A stretch of 64,000 bases of DNA from contig RWJK01000755.1 in assembly GCA_004335835.1 (NCBI GenBank), forward strand, positions 34,883 to 98,882, written 5' to 3'. The stretch is from Scenedesmus sp. ARA3 (lineage: Eukaryota > Chlorophyta > Chlorophyceae > Sphaeropleales > Scenedesmaceae). The position numbers and the translations under genes are program-made. Position 1 is the stretch's first letter, and every line of letters begins with the position of its first letter. This document shows positions 3,460-63,866 of the stretch, in pieces. The notes below the pieces were generated by a model. That model was not told the origin of the DNA, ran no database searches, and saw nothing but the letters and a program-made list of their open reading frames with translations.

Positions 3460-6400
3460 TCACTGCTGCCGGCACTGCCCAGGCTTTGCTGCTGGTGGCG
3501 CTTCCACTGACCCGCTAGCCTTGCGGCCAGCATCCTCACCGCTGTTGCTGTTATTTGCAGCCCCAGCACCCAGCGTCACCTTGCAGCCCTTCACCACCTT
3601 CACATTGCTGCTGCCGCTGCTGCCGACGCCGCCACCCAGCCCACCACTGCCGCCGCTCGCCTGCAGCTGCCTTGCTAGCGCCTCAACCTTGCCCCGCACT
3701 CTCCCGCCGCCGCCGCTGCTGCTGCCAATGCCGTCTGCTGCTCCATTGCCGCTGATGCTGCGGCGGCGCTTGCCGCGGCTGTCGCTGCTGCGGCGCCGCC
3801 GCAGGCTGCTGCTGCCCTGGCTGGTCAAACTTTGACCGGATGTTTGACCGAAGACCAAGCGGTCAAAGATGTCAGCGACGATGTCAGTGACGGCTGCATC
3901 TATGTCTGGCCGGTAGTTGCGTGGCCGCCGCTGCTGCCGCCGCTGCCGCTGCTTCAGGCGGGGCGCTGGCTCTGCTCCTACTCCTCGCAGTGCCGCTGCA
4001 ACCAGCTGCCGCACCTGCACACAAACAATGCAGATAGGCACAGTGAAGGCAGCACAGCAGGGAGGCGGGCGAGGAACCGATGTAATGTGGAGAAAAGAGG
4101 CAGCAAGACGGAGGCAACTACAATCACAGTGCAGCTCTGCAGCGCAGCCAGCTGGCTGCAATGGTACTCAGCACAGCAGCACCTAACAATGGGTCATGCA
4201 CGACAGCGGAAACCTCCTAGTCAGCTGACACAGTACATGTGTGCCAGCTGCTGGCACCAATCCTGCAAACTCTCACCTCTGGCAGGATGCTGTCATCCAC
4301 TTACACCTCCTCCCACTCATCTTCAGATTGAACTTCATCCTCATCACTGGCGTGAACTTCCAAACTCACACCCTGAACTTCCAGTCCCAAAGTGCAACAA
4401 CGCACCGAGCAACAACTACAGTGCATGCGCGACAGTAACACCATTGGAACACAACAGTTGACAGCAGCACAGGGCAACCACACTGCTGCCATAAATGAAA
4501 AACAATTTCAAGACACAATTTGCAACTTCTCACCTCTGGCAGGATGCCGTCATCCACTTCCACCTCCTCCCACTCATCTTCAGACTGAACTTCGTCCTCC
4601 TCGCTGGCGTGAACATCGCCCTGAACTTCCAAACTCACACTGCGCCGGCCCCGGCTGATAGCTGCAGCAGGCAGCTGCGGCTGCACCAGCTGTGCAACAG
4701 CATTGGCCACAAGCTGCTGAACCTCAGGCTCAATGCCAGCCCTTGGCACGTAACTGGCATTCACAGGCGCTGCTGCTGATCTGCTGCTGCTGCTGCTGCC
4801 AGCAGCTGATGCCTGGCGCTCTGCCTTCTTCCGCTGCTCCCGCTGCTTGCGCGTAGACTCCTTTTCCGTTGCTGCTGCTGCTGCCCCTGCTGCAGCTGCC
4901 GGCGCCGACGGTTTGACCTGCTGCTGCTGCTGCTGCTGCTTGGCCGGCTGCTGCTGCTTCGAAGCTGGCTGCTTCTCTGCCGCTGCTGGCTGCTGCTTAC
5001 CGCCCTTGCCTTGCTGCTTCTCAAGAACAGCTGCTGCTGCCTGCTTCTTCCCTCCAGAAGCAGCAGCATCCTTAAAGCTGTCCTTGACCTGCTGCTGCTG
5101 CTTCTTGCCGGCCTGCTGGCTGCTGCTGCCGCTGCCAGCTGCGGCCGGCCCTGTTGCTGCTGCTGCTGCGCGGTCCTTTGCAACGCCTGCAAGTGCCCCC
5201 TTGAAAGCAGCAAGGCCTCCAGGCCCCAGCAGAGCAGCAGCACGCTTCCTGGGGGGCTCCCCAGAGCCCCCTGCTGCTGCTGCTGCTGAGTCTGTGGGTA
5301 CGGCTCTGGTGGGTCGCTCCCGTTCCCTCTCCCGCTCCTTATTTGCTGCTGCCACTGCTGCTGCTGCTGCCGACGCCGGGCCGCCCTTGCCCTGCTGCTG
5401 CTGCTGCTGCCCGCGCTGCTGCTGCTGTGGCGGCGCCGCTGGTGCAGGGTGCTGCTGCTCTCTGGGGTGGTGCTGCTCACGGCCCCGTAGGTCGTGCTGC
5501 TGCCATGTCGGCGGCTGCGCTTGGCGGTTCTTGCCGCCCTGCACGACGCCAAACTGCTGCTGCTGTTGCTGCTGCATACGGTGCTGCTCTGTTGCAGCGT
5601 CCCGTGCTGCTGCTGCCAGCGCTGCTGCTGCTGCTCCTCCCGGCCCACCCATACCTGGCCTGGCGGGCTTGCCTGGTGGGCCGCCGGCGGCGGCTGCTAA
5701 ACCCTTGCCAGCCCCAGGAGGCCCAAACCCTGCAGGACCGCCGCCGGGTGCTGCTCCAGCAGTACCTGGGCCTCCCATCTTCTTGGCAAACCCTGGAGGG
5801 GCGCTGCTGCCACCTGCTGCTGCTGCTGCTGCTGCTGGGCCACCTGCAACCTTACTGCCAGGTGCACCAGGGGGGCCGTGAGGATGCATGCCCATACCTC
5901 CGCCGCTGCTGCGTGCTGCTGCTGCTGCAGAGCCCTGAGCCCCAGGCGGGGCTGGGCCCTGGCTAGACCCTAAACCACTGCCAGGCTTCTTGAACCCTGG
6001 CGGTGCTGTGTCTGAAGCGTCAGACGCCAGCCGGTTCAGGTGTTGCTGCTGCAGGTTAGGCCTGCCAGGAGGAGCCGGCACACCCCGCTGCTGCTGCTGC
6101 TGCTGCATGGCTGGGGTTTTGCGGGGCCCGCCAAACCCTGCAGGCGCGTCATCGTCATCTGCAGAGTGCCTGGGGCCCCCAGCAGCAGCAGCATGACCTG
6201 GCGCTGCTGCTGCTGCTGGTCCTCGCCTGCCCACAGCACCGGGTGGGTGTGCATGTGGTGGTGGGGGTGGCGGTACGCCGTACTGCCCTGGCTGCTGCTG
6301 CTGCTGCTGTTGAGGGGCTCCATGTAGGGCTGCTGCTGTACTTCCTCCGGAAGCTGCTGCTGTTGCTGCTGCCCCTGCCGTAACCTGCTGCTGCTGCTGC

Positions 6401-63300: not shown

Positions 63301-63866
63301 ATCAACAATGGAAAGTGAAACCGCAGCTATGCTGGGTTGTGAGCCTTGCTGCACATTCAACTGACTTCTAACCAGGGCCTTAAAGTATAGAAGATCTGCA
63401 ACAGCAACAGCACTGTATTGAGACTGCCCCTGGCTGCCCCTGCAGGACTTCAACGTGCTGCGCTACAGCCCGGGCCAGCACTACCACAGCCACATGGACA
63501 CCTTTGACGGCCACAGCCACAACCACTGTATTGAGGATGCCCCCGGTTGCCCCTGCAGGACTGTGACGTGCTGCACTACAGCCCGGGCCAGCACCACAGC
63601 CACTGCGCGCCACAGAGCAAACATGGACAGTCATATACACACAACTGGCTGACACCCGCGGCTGTGTGACGTTTGTTCCGTGCAGGACTTCAACGTGCTG
63701 CGCTACAGCCCCGGCCAGCACTACCACAGCCACATGGACACCTTTGACGCGCGCTTCGTGGCACAGACCGACCCAGGCTTTGGCCAGCGCATGGCCACCA
63801 TGATCCTGTACTTGTCTGACGTTGAGGAGGGAGGAGAAACGGTTTTTAAGCGAGAGGGCAAGTACG
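60338..63866 (+). CDS. Prolyl 4-hydroxylase alpha-subunit-like protein, 3' end beyond the window
   Basis: Five exons lie in the window: 60338-60514, 61070-61351, 61579-61728, 62861-62974, 63686-63866; 301 residues so far, all in phase. A signal anchor (GIAALCLVAGYILGCL) is followed by a stem with a polyGln run, then the Fe(II)/2-oxoglutarate dioxygenase fold: VLSWYPRIVLFPAFFDKTTAAAVISMARPLL, IRTSMGVFLNR, DFNVLRYSPGQHYHSHMDTFD and MILYLSDVEEGGETVF. His257 and Asp259 are the first two iron ligands; the distal His and the 2-oxoglutarate Lys lie outside the window. Plant and algal homologues hydroxylate proline in cell-wall glycoproteins in the ER/Golgi. The exon ending at 63866 has a GTGAGT donor, so the gene continues. 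Confidence 0.94.
60545..61060 (+). repeat. ~31-bp array of acceptor-like units in prolyl hydroxylase intron 1
   Basis: About fifteen units of the type GCACTGCATGCTTGCAGGAAATGTGCAG, with variants, fill the intron up to the true acceptor CATGCTTGCAG (exon starts 61070). Most contain TGCAGG. It resembles a spaced direct repeat but is an intronic tandem array. Confidence 0.85.
61790..62105 (+). repeat. Three copies of the end of prolyl hydroxylase exon 3
   Basis: 61800-61860, 61950-62010 and 62020-62105 repeat the codons for (ARPLLKPS)KLGTAGLSEEE...NQP; GTGAGT follows the first two. The third has lost its donor (CCAATGAGC). The true exon ends at 61728. Confidence 0.85.
62255..62400 (+). repeat. 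(CTG)n-(CCGCTG)n tract plus copy of prolyl hydroxylase exon 4
   Basis: A CTG run changes into about ten CCGCTG hexamers, ends CCGCAG and is followed from 62345 by codons for IRTSMGVFLK. The frame then shifts and is lost. The true exon 4 starts at 62861 after a shorter CTG/CCG tract. Confidence 0.88.
63030..63620 (+). repeat. Copies of prolyl hydroxylase exon 4 end and exon 5 start
   Basis: 63045-63128 and 63210-63295 repeat the end of exon 4 (LLAALEG.VAAVTF...PSHGE). 63446-63520 and 63558-63605 repeat the start of exon 5 (DFNVLRYSPGQHYHSHMDTFD). The 63446 copy retains the acceptor and the iron-ligand codons but then breaks off. The true exon starts at 63686. Confidence 0.9.

Follow-up and report, generated by a model that had tools for sequence, protein, structure and literature searches.

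In the passages of earlier work cited here, a tandem genomic duplication spanning an intron-exon boundary is described for one case in potato, and intron gain by tandem duplication is the subject of the Rogers model (PMC3443670). Internal gene duplication is cited as common (PMC4974935), and small tandem duplications from the repair of staggered breaks are presented as direct and local, the small ones being shorter than 100 bp (PMC8355091, which cites Vaughn and Bennetzen 2014 on rice). In this study, we analysed a 64,000-nucleotide stretch of DNA (the window) from Scenedesmus sp. ARA3 (GenBank assembly GCA_004335835.1, 87.3 Mb in 1567 contigs; contig RWJK01000755.1, positions 34,883 to 98,882), in which exon borders are copied into the neighbouring introns. 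We call these copies echoes; an acceptor-type echo holds the start of an exon with its acceptor and a donor-type echo the end of an exon with its donor. Echoes are confirmed to be real: they are orderly, direct copies of exon borders in the flanking introns.

Gene models were made with a simple gene finder that trained itself on the window and on sampled stretches. The splice consensus that it learned was MAG/GTG for the donor and TGCAG/G for the acceptor (the slash marks the splice point). Short segments were repeated in the proteins predicted by the raw models because echoes were often taken as exons by the gene finder. With the repeats omitted, the proteins matched known families (Pfam), and the repeat-free prohibitin-2, UDP-glucose pyrophosphorylase (UGPase) and CutA proteins aligned to PDB sequences through the exon junctions. 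Seven genes, namely those of UGPase, prohibitin-2, CutA, GT90 glycosyltransferase, redoxin, subtilase and a prolyl-4-hydroxylase-like (P4H-like) protein, were matched against proteins from PDB, Pfam or sequence databases and gave 50 exons in the final set; redoxin and subtilase were identified by Pfam matches only. Four of the genes are as follows.

51650..59044, plus strand: UGPase gene, 12 checked exons (Pfam UDPGP, 4.7e-123; PDB 2oef, 6.5e-120; database protein P0147, 98% identical over the aligned residues).
40894..46379, minus strand: prohibitin-2 gene, 7 exons (PDB 8rrh, 3.5e-102; residues 9-277 of 285 aligned).
48013..49666, minus strand: CutA gene (Pfam CutA1, 1.2e-37; PDB 2zom, 6.8e-34).
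32903..38136, plus strand: GT90 glycosyltransferase gene, 9 checked exons (Pfam PF05686, 3.3e-23; protein P0001 of Tetradesmus obliquus).

The GT90 protein built from the exons is listed with 100% identity and coverage against P0001, about two differences being found on reading, and the P4H-like protein is 95% identical to the T. obliquus record P0027 over 62%. From these two matches we take the strain to be T. obliquus or one of its closest relatives. P0147 ('lgn' source) has 485 residues and comes from a contig of 1671 bases. Since the UGPase gene itself spans more than 7 kb, P0147 should derive from spliced RNA. An earlier set of 53 exons contained one UGPase exon that proved false (52992-53124), a chimeric pair of exons in CutA and, in redoxin and subtilase, copies mistaken for the true exon; the corrected 50-exon set is based on P0147 and on re-examined gene-finder exons. 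The main counts, polarity, border inclusion, steps, splice sites and frame counts rest on the 50-exon set, and the codon-position split of copy-specific and shared changes, flank homology, spacer search, intron lengths, exon/flank ratios and score percentiles on the 53-exon set. For the border, step, splice-site and frame counts, 77 of the 86 echoes described below were retained, without those that had under 25 aligned bases or whose end lay over 5 bases into the exon.

In the introns flanking the 50 exons, we found 86 direct echoes and one inverted copy, whereas ten control runs on unlinked stretches of this genome gave 0-3 per run (mean 1.6). The intron-facing border was reached by 79 of the 86, where random exon pieces would give 16.2 (maximum 31 in 2000 draws). 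All 42 acceptor-only copies are upstream of their exon and all 32 donor-only copies downstream, counts that are favoured because the corrections of CutA, redoxin and subtilase were partly prompted by the polarity pattern. On the uncorrected 53-exon set, 70 of 74 single-border copies lie as expected (39+31 vs 1+3), and most of the wrong-polarity copies trace to the misassigned exons. The remaining echoes are one whole-exon copy (downstream) and 11 that fail the border-crossing criterion used. Inverted copies numbered none in the 53-exon count, against the one in the 50-exon count, and comparison of the whole window with itself gave one weak inverted pair within 2 kb.

Identity of the echoes to the exon is graded, from 66 to 100%. 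One copy was found at 27 affected borders, two at 13, three at 6, and six at 1. These counts agree with the initial annotation, which had been made from the sequence alone and described border-spanning pieces repeated one to six times, acceptor copies upstream and donor copies downstream, with graded divergence. Its wording that nearly every junction is duplicated was overstated, since echoes affect 35 of the 50 exons and 47 exon ends (of at most 100), that is, about half of the junctions. By gene, exons with an echo are 10 of 12 in UGPase, 5 of 7 in prohibitin-2, 2 of 4 in CutA, 6 of 9 in GT90, 4 of 4 in redoxin, 5 of 10 in subtilase and 3 of 4 in the P4H-like gene. The same annotation extended the pattern to nine genes. 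It holds for the seven checked ones; the other two (about 905-10274, minus strand, and 11025-14761, plus strand) show similar repeat pairs, for example 4264-4360/4521-4617 and 13444-13757, with exons that are predictions only.

Graded divergence, fixed polarity and up to six copies are hardly what collapsed haplotypes or mis-joined reads would leave, although the assembly is fragmented. In addition, an annotated GT90 protein from the PacBio genome of Scenedesmus sp. NREL 46B-D3 (P0009) appears by eye to carry further copies like the end of exon 35709-35830, at the same junction as in the window. An assembly artefact is therefore scarcely credible. From P0009, the echo process probably extends to this relative as well; by eye, no such copies were seen in the proteins P0002-P0005 of other relatives. 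Public gene models in this group may be faulty where echoes were called as exons, and P0009 seemingly contains translated echoes.

We consider it probable that the echoes come from recurrent local tandem duplications across splice junctions that are spared by splicing, with exchange or conversion between copy and exon. Each echo would have arisen when a segment across the exon-intron border, mostly 90-165 bp long, was duplicated locally in tandem. When an acceptor is duplicated, the downstream copy, joined to the rest of the exon, would stay functional and the upstream copy would become a spare; when a donor is duplicated, the mirror image would leave the spare downstream. The spare, lying in the intron, would be spliced out and decay without coding constraint, and repeated duplications would lengthen the intron. 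Every founder was presumably a tandem duplication. Through gene conversion or unequal exchange with the exon, which is under constraint, the exon parts of echoes may then stay younger than their spacers, and such exchange would let border arrays outlast intron-only arrays.

The spacing and intron lengths can be set beside this scheme. Steps between successive copies (n = 77) have a median of 130 bp; 56 are within 90-165 bp, 3 below 90 and 18 above 165. In 46 introns, echoes make up 21% of the sequence, and echoes with their spacers 49%. The median intron length is 457 bp with an echo (35 introns) vs 240 bp without (11 introns). About six of ten arrays were judged by eye, and no clear microhomology was seen at their duplication junctions. 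A strict need for AG/GT in surviving acceptor echoes was considered and rejected, as several affected exons begin with GC, AC, AT or CC in an informal tally.

Local repeats in general are also biased toward exons. The checked gene spans hold 86 local direct repeat pairs (a set distinct from the 86 echoes). Of these, 71 include exon sequence and 15 lie wholly within introns (intron-only), compared with 43.5 +/- 4.4 when pairs are placed at random (never fewer than 30 in 1000 placements). Pairs of the intron-only kind decay faster and are thus under-detected, and the expectation partly overstates the gap because present intron lengths are inflated by echoes. All but one of the 15 share 12 bases or more with an echo; the exception, which overlaps none, is at 54124-54328 (85%, offset 139). 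Among the pairs that are at least 90% identical, 6 of 26 are intron-only. The deficit means that either borders are preferred sites of mutation or copies are kept alive by the conserved exon.

The same annotation had offered survivorship as a neutral explanation. In its pure form, tandem duplication would be uniform, purged in exons, kept in introns and across borders, and would decay more slowly to the eye beside an exon. Survivorship fits the polarity, the border inclusion, the graded divergence and the lack of constraint on the copies, and intron-intron pairs would decay about twice as fast, so that old ones are missed. It underpredicts the border bias, however: intron-only pairs are about a third of the expected number, nearly all of them overlap an echo, and they are a minority even among the most similar pairs. 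We regard pure survivorship as unlikely.

The flanks of the echoes bear on the role of exchange. Of 75 steps, 21 have an intron flank with significant homology. In the 12 exon-echo pairs among them, the divergence of the exon part relative to that of the flank is 0.54 (confidence interval (CI) 0.37-0.78), against a neutral value of about 0.67. In the 9 echo-echo pairs, the ratio is 0.58 (CI 0.40-0.78) where 1.0 is expected, and gaps number 2.0 per 100 in exon parts vs 6.4 in flanks. The exon parts of echoes thus look younger than their intron parts, which suggests continuing exchange with the exon.

Several observations weigh against duplication followed by exchange. At 23 of 27 borders with one echo, the sequence past the echo shows no significant homology to the spacer, and for the nearest echoes the same holds in 30 of 41 cases and in 5 of 10 in which the exon part is more than 93% identical. 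This counts against the scheme because, after a recent tandem duplication, the exon and intron parts would be expected to be equally similar. Putative exchange with the exon could account for the mismatch. The CI of the exon-echo ratio includes the neutral value, and the exon/flank ratio is biased toward similar exon parts by the way in which echoes were detected. The contrast between inner and outer spacers predicted by exchange has the right direction and is not significant (p = 0.24, 0.43). Finally, copies at least 90% identical to the exon show an excess of third-position differences (21:12:66 for codon positions 1-3), with a third-position share of 66% (CI 53-77%, one copy per exon end). 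This excess in the youngest copies hints at constraint or exchange.

A rival reading is templated insertion, in which exon edges would be copied by template switching into an existing intron about 120 bp off without the intron part. In line with this, 35 spacers match nearby sequence no better than 120 randomly chosen intron segments do, and one spacer tested genome-wide has no match elsewhere. Contiguous duplication, on the other hand, predicts both the inclusion of the facing border and the absence of single-border copies of the wrong polarity, as found and as insertion would not predict, and inverted copies are nearly absent while some flanks are homologous. Templated insertion thus seems quite improbable to us.

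Beyond recurrent duplication with some exchange, concerted evolution anchored in the exon is possible, and we put it forward tentatively. The copy fixed by coding would seed border arrays that expand, contract and are overwritten by the exon, and intron-only duplications would lose homology and freeze. If so, introns would grow from their ends and be full of near-optimal decoy splice sites. The spliceosome would have to prefer the site on the full exon, and misuse would be cleared by nonsense-mediated decay, of which the apparent depletion of frame-preserving offsets would be a sign.

Differences between copies and exons were divided by codon position. Changes unique to one copy, at borders with at least two overlapping copies, are 65:64:85 at positions 1-3; changes common to all copies of a border, which belong to the exon lineage, are 9:6:22; and all exon-echo mismatches are 179:144:349. 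These fit free copies beside exons that are free only at third positions. Coding constraint on the copies, as in tandem exon duplication for alternative splicing, was thus not found, with a possible exception in subtilase: copy 21300-21413 differs from 20991-21105 at ten sites, all at third codon positions, and may be coding and translated.

Copied splice dinucleotides are intact in 40 of 44 cases (AG) and 28 of 33 (GT). Their median weight-matrix scores are 7.42 vs 8.11 at true sites for acceptors and 6.41 vs 6.20 for donors, which exceed the 95th percentiles of the window (AG 6.42, GT 4.77). Offsets divisible by three number 17 of 77 (p = 0.04), 10 of 47 for nearest copies (p = 0.09) and 7 of 31 in other loci; such a depletion is suggestive of selection against frame-preserving misuse but is not proof. 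An in-frame stop interrupts the segment that would be added in 12 of the 17 cases that preserve the frame and in 48 of the 60 that do not, so stops do not separate the two.

These sites, the apparent depletion and the subtilase copy would suit functional echoes, that is, recursive splice sites, decoy exons or selected alternative exons. However, copy-specific changes are barely biased to third positions (p = 0.05 including the subtilase copy), and intact sites need no selection because the true sites are constrained and the copies are about 90% identical. Furthermore, echoes are absent from the three matching protein records P0001 (GT90), P0027 (P4H-like) and P0147 (UGPase). As to the suggestion that echoes could supply alternative splice sites, the copied sites are mostly intact, but these proteins contain no echo. 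We judge a function of this kind very improbable.

The individual echoes are listed below with their identity to the exon. At two sites of UGPase the exon reads KDYG and ATLESSNG, in agreement with P0147.

52839..52885, plus strand: donor-type echo of UGPase exon 52697-52774 (95.7% over 47 bp, offset 104).
53747..53809, plus strand: acceptor-type echo of UGPase exon 53878-53994 (88.9%, offset 123; E vs D in the exon and P0147).
54793..54885, plus strand: acceptor-type echo of UGPase exon 54937-55114 (89.2%, offset 139).
55195..55600, plus strand: three donor-type echoes of the same exon (93.2, 92.0 and 86.9%; steps 157-161 bp; inner spacers homologous too).
55774..56050, plus strand: three acceptor-type echoes of UGPase exon 56110-56212 (80.9-86.5%, steps 110-113 bp).
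56807..56913, plus strand: acceptor-type echo of UGPase exon 57016-57136 (83.2%, offset 203; ATLDASKG in the echo, ATLESSNG in the exon and P0147).
57367..57589, plus strand: two acceptor-type echoes of UGPase exon 57665-57810 (74.6% to the exon), inside a 164-bp duplication.
58601..58869, plus strand: three acceptor-type echoes of UGPase exon 58949-59044 (78.5-90.7%).

The 164-bp duplication in the UGPase intron is 100% identical between 57346-57459 and 57510-57623. The echoes of the other genes are as follows.

41030..41670, minus strand: six acceptor-type echoes of prohibitin-2 exon 40894-41003 (84.4-96.1%, steps 103-117 bp).
42263..42298, minus strand: acceptor-type echo of prohibitin-2 exon 42031-42156 (97.2%, offset 140).
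42538..42750, minus strand: two donor-type echoes of prohibitin-2 exon 43198-43362 (97.7 and 96.3%).
43415..43638, minus strand: two acceptor-type echoes of the same exon (92.1 and 88.8%; steps 134-135 bp).
44417..44630, minus strand: two donor-type echoes of prohibitin-2 exon 44719-44835 (96.2 and 97.8%).
44929..45380, minus strand: three acceptor-type echoes of the same exon (90.0-92.2%).
47613..47889, minus strand: three donor-side echoes of CutA exon 48013-48134 (83-91%).
48206..48258, minus strand: acceptor-type echo of the same exon (92.5%, offset 119).
33890..33932, plus strand: acceptor-type echo of GT90 exon 34022-34102 (97.7%, offset 127).
34909..34998, plus strand: donor-type echo of GT90 exon 34654-34872 (76.7%).
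35872..35950, plus strand: donor-type echo of GT90 exon 35709-35830 (84.8%, offset 114).
36212..36292, plus strand: acceptor-type echo of GT90 exon 36330-36488 (97.5%, offset 110).
36538..36852, plus strand: three donor-side echoes of the same exon (76-94%).
36947..37264, plus strand: three acceptor-type echoes of GT90 exon 37337-37480 (94.0-95.9%).
37870..37917, plus strand: acceptor-type echo of GT90 exon 37982-38136 (87.5%, offset 110).
27991..28338, minus strand: near-identical 93-bp tandem units (96% over 255 bp).
28813..29193, minus strand: two donor-type echoes of redoxin exon 29333-29491 (84.5 and 81.7%).
30106..30164, minus strand: acceptor-type echo of redoxin exon 29901-30029 (93.2%, offset 133).
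21152..21413, minus strand: two acceptor-side copies of subtilase exon 20441-21098 (true exon assigned from the corrected set).
Within 23725..25641, minus strand: subtilase donor echoes 23725-23773, 24249-24309 and 25537-25641 (74-85%).
Within 23725..25641, minus strand: subtilase acceptor echoes 24086-24146, 24171-24218 and 24669-24729 (74-85%).
61783..62096, plus strand: three donor-side echoes of P4H-like exon 61579-61728 (67.4-81.1%).
63438..63603, plus strand: two acceptor-type echoes of P4H-like exon 63686-63865 (97.2 and 88.7%).

In the six-copy prohibitin-2 array (41004-41696), two spacer types alternate by eye and the exon parts are alike; the alternation suggests duplication of a two-unit block. 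A 62-bp minisatellite (45171-45332) lies within another prohibitin-2 echo array and has a period unlike that of the echoes. By reading, each 93-bp unit at 27991-28338 carries the acceptor and the head of the predicted last redoxin exon. Outside the checked genes, a duplicated pair is found at 15079-15254 (84%, offset 100).

Elsewhere in the genome, 15 other sampled loci (0.9-10 kb) hold 75 direct pairs, 0-25 per locus, and one inverted pair; at locus L012, 16 of the 25 pairs are not echoes but parts of a coding sequence that looks like ankyrin repeats. Three helicase loci were sampled because their matches already appeared duplicated, and a prohibitin-1-like locus, chosen regardless of echoes, has 4 direct pairs. 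Among 217 unchecked gene-finder exons of the other loci and L018, 22 acceptor copies upstream and 19 donor copies downstream were found vs 10 acceptor copies downstream and 2 donor copies upstream, together with 7 whole-exon, 29 internal and 7 inverted copies. Nearest copies in other loci are 109-158 bp off in 19 of 31 cases. Echo density is uneven by gene: 0 of 20 tested exons in L009, 11 of 22 in L017 and 4 of 8 in L018 are affected. By eye, without a family search, these three resemble P4-ATPase, valyl-tRNA synthetase and xylose isomerase, respectively. The echo pattern is thus present elsewhere in the genome but patchy.

An origin of the copies from paralogues was considered and rejected. 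There is a single close prohibitin-2 locus and a distant one that is 39-62% identical, and the tested UGPase region has no second copy; therefore, divergent paralogues are unlikely donors. Besides itself, a 501-base intron/exon query from one UGPase region gave genomic matches only to one stretch of 40-50 bases.

If the process operates genome-wide, it would be a route by which introns grow through mutations at their splice junctions and not through transposons. It would also provide a natural experiment on splice-site choice, with dozens of decoys of graded ages that score like the true site, mostly 90-165 nt off. Echoes may explain faulty gene models in this algal group.

Introners are dispersed repeated elements with near-identical copies in many introns. 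The echoes share with them a large effect on algal intron content, to judge from the cited part of that work (PMC9860276). They differ in that introners are dispersed, and the tested echo region has no other genomic copies beyond the short stretch mentioned above. The potato case, as described in the passages cited, is likewise direct and in tandem; its unit covers the 3' part of an intron together with the 5' part of the exon that follows. It is one event in one gene that made a new intron, whereas here 86 copies in seven genes lengthen introns and leave exon positions unchanged. In the genes compared, no new intron position is apparent, since proteins that lack the echoes can be aligned across the junctions. 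Gao and Lynch reportedly described ubiquitous internal gene duplication in 2009, with duplicated parts that include intron and exon. Such duplications are not known to occur at most exons of most genes, nor as one to six graded copies per border.

Duplications from staggered breaks are likewise direct and local and are a plausible source of the founders; in the passages cited (PMC8355091), they carry no link to splice borders, unlike the echoes. The direct local orientation of tandem duplications across an intron-exon boundary is found here, with 86 direct copies to one inverted, and the unit contains the border in 79 of 86. In a literature in which subscription journals were thinly covered, we recognised no report of junction-wide echoes in Scenedesmaceae or of this density. 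It is plausible that the density is far above that of ordinary genomes. The type of mutation itself is already known, but the border bias and the mismatch of ages between exon and intron parts are not fully explained by simple survivorship.

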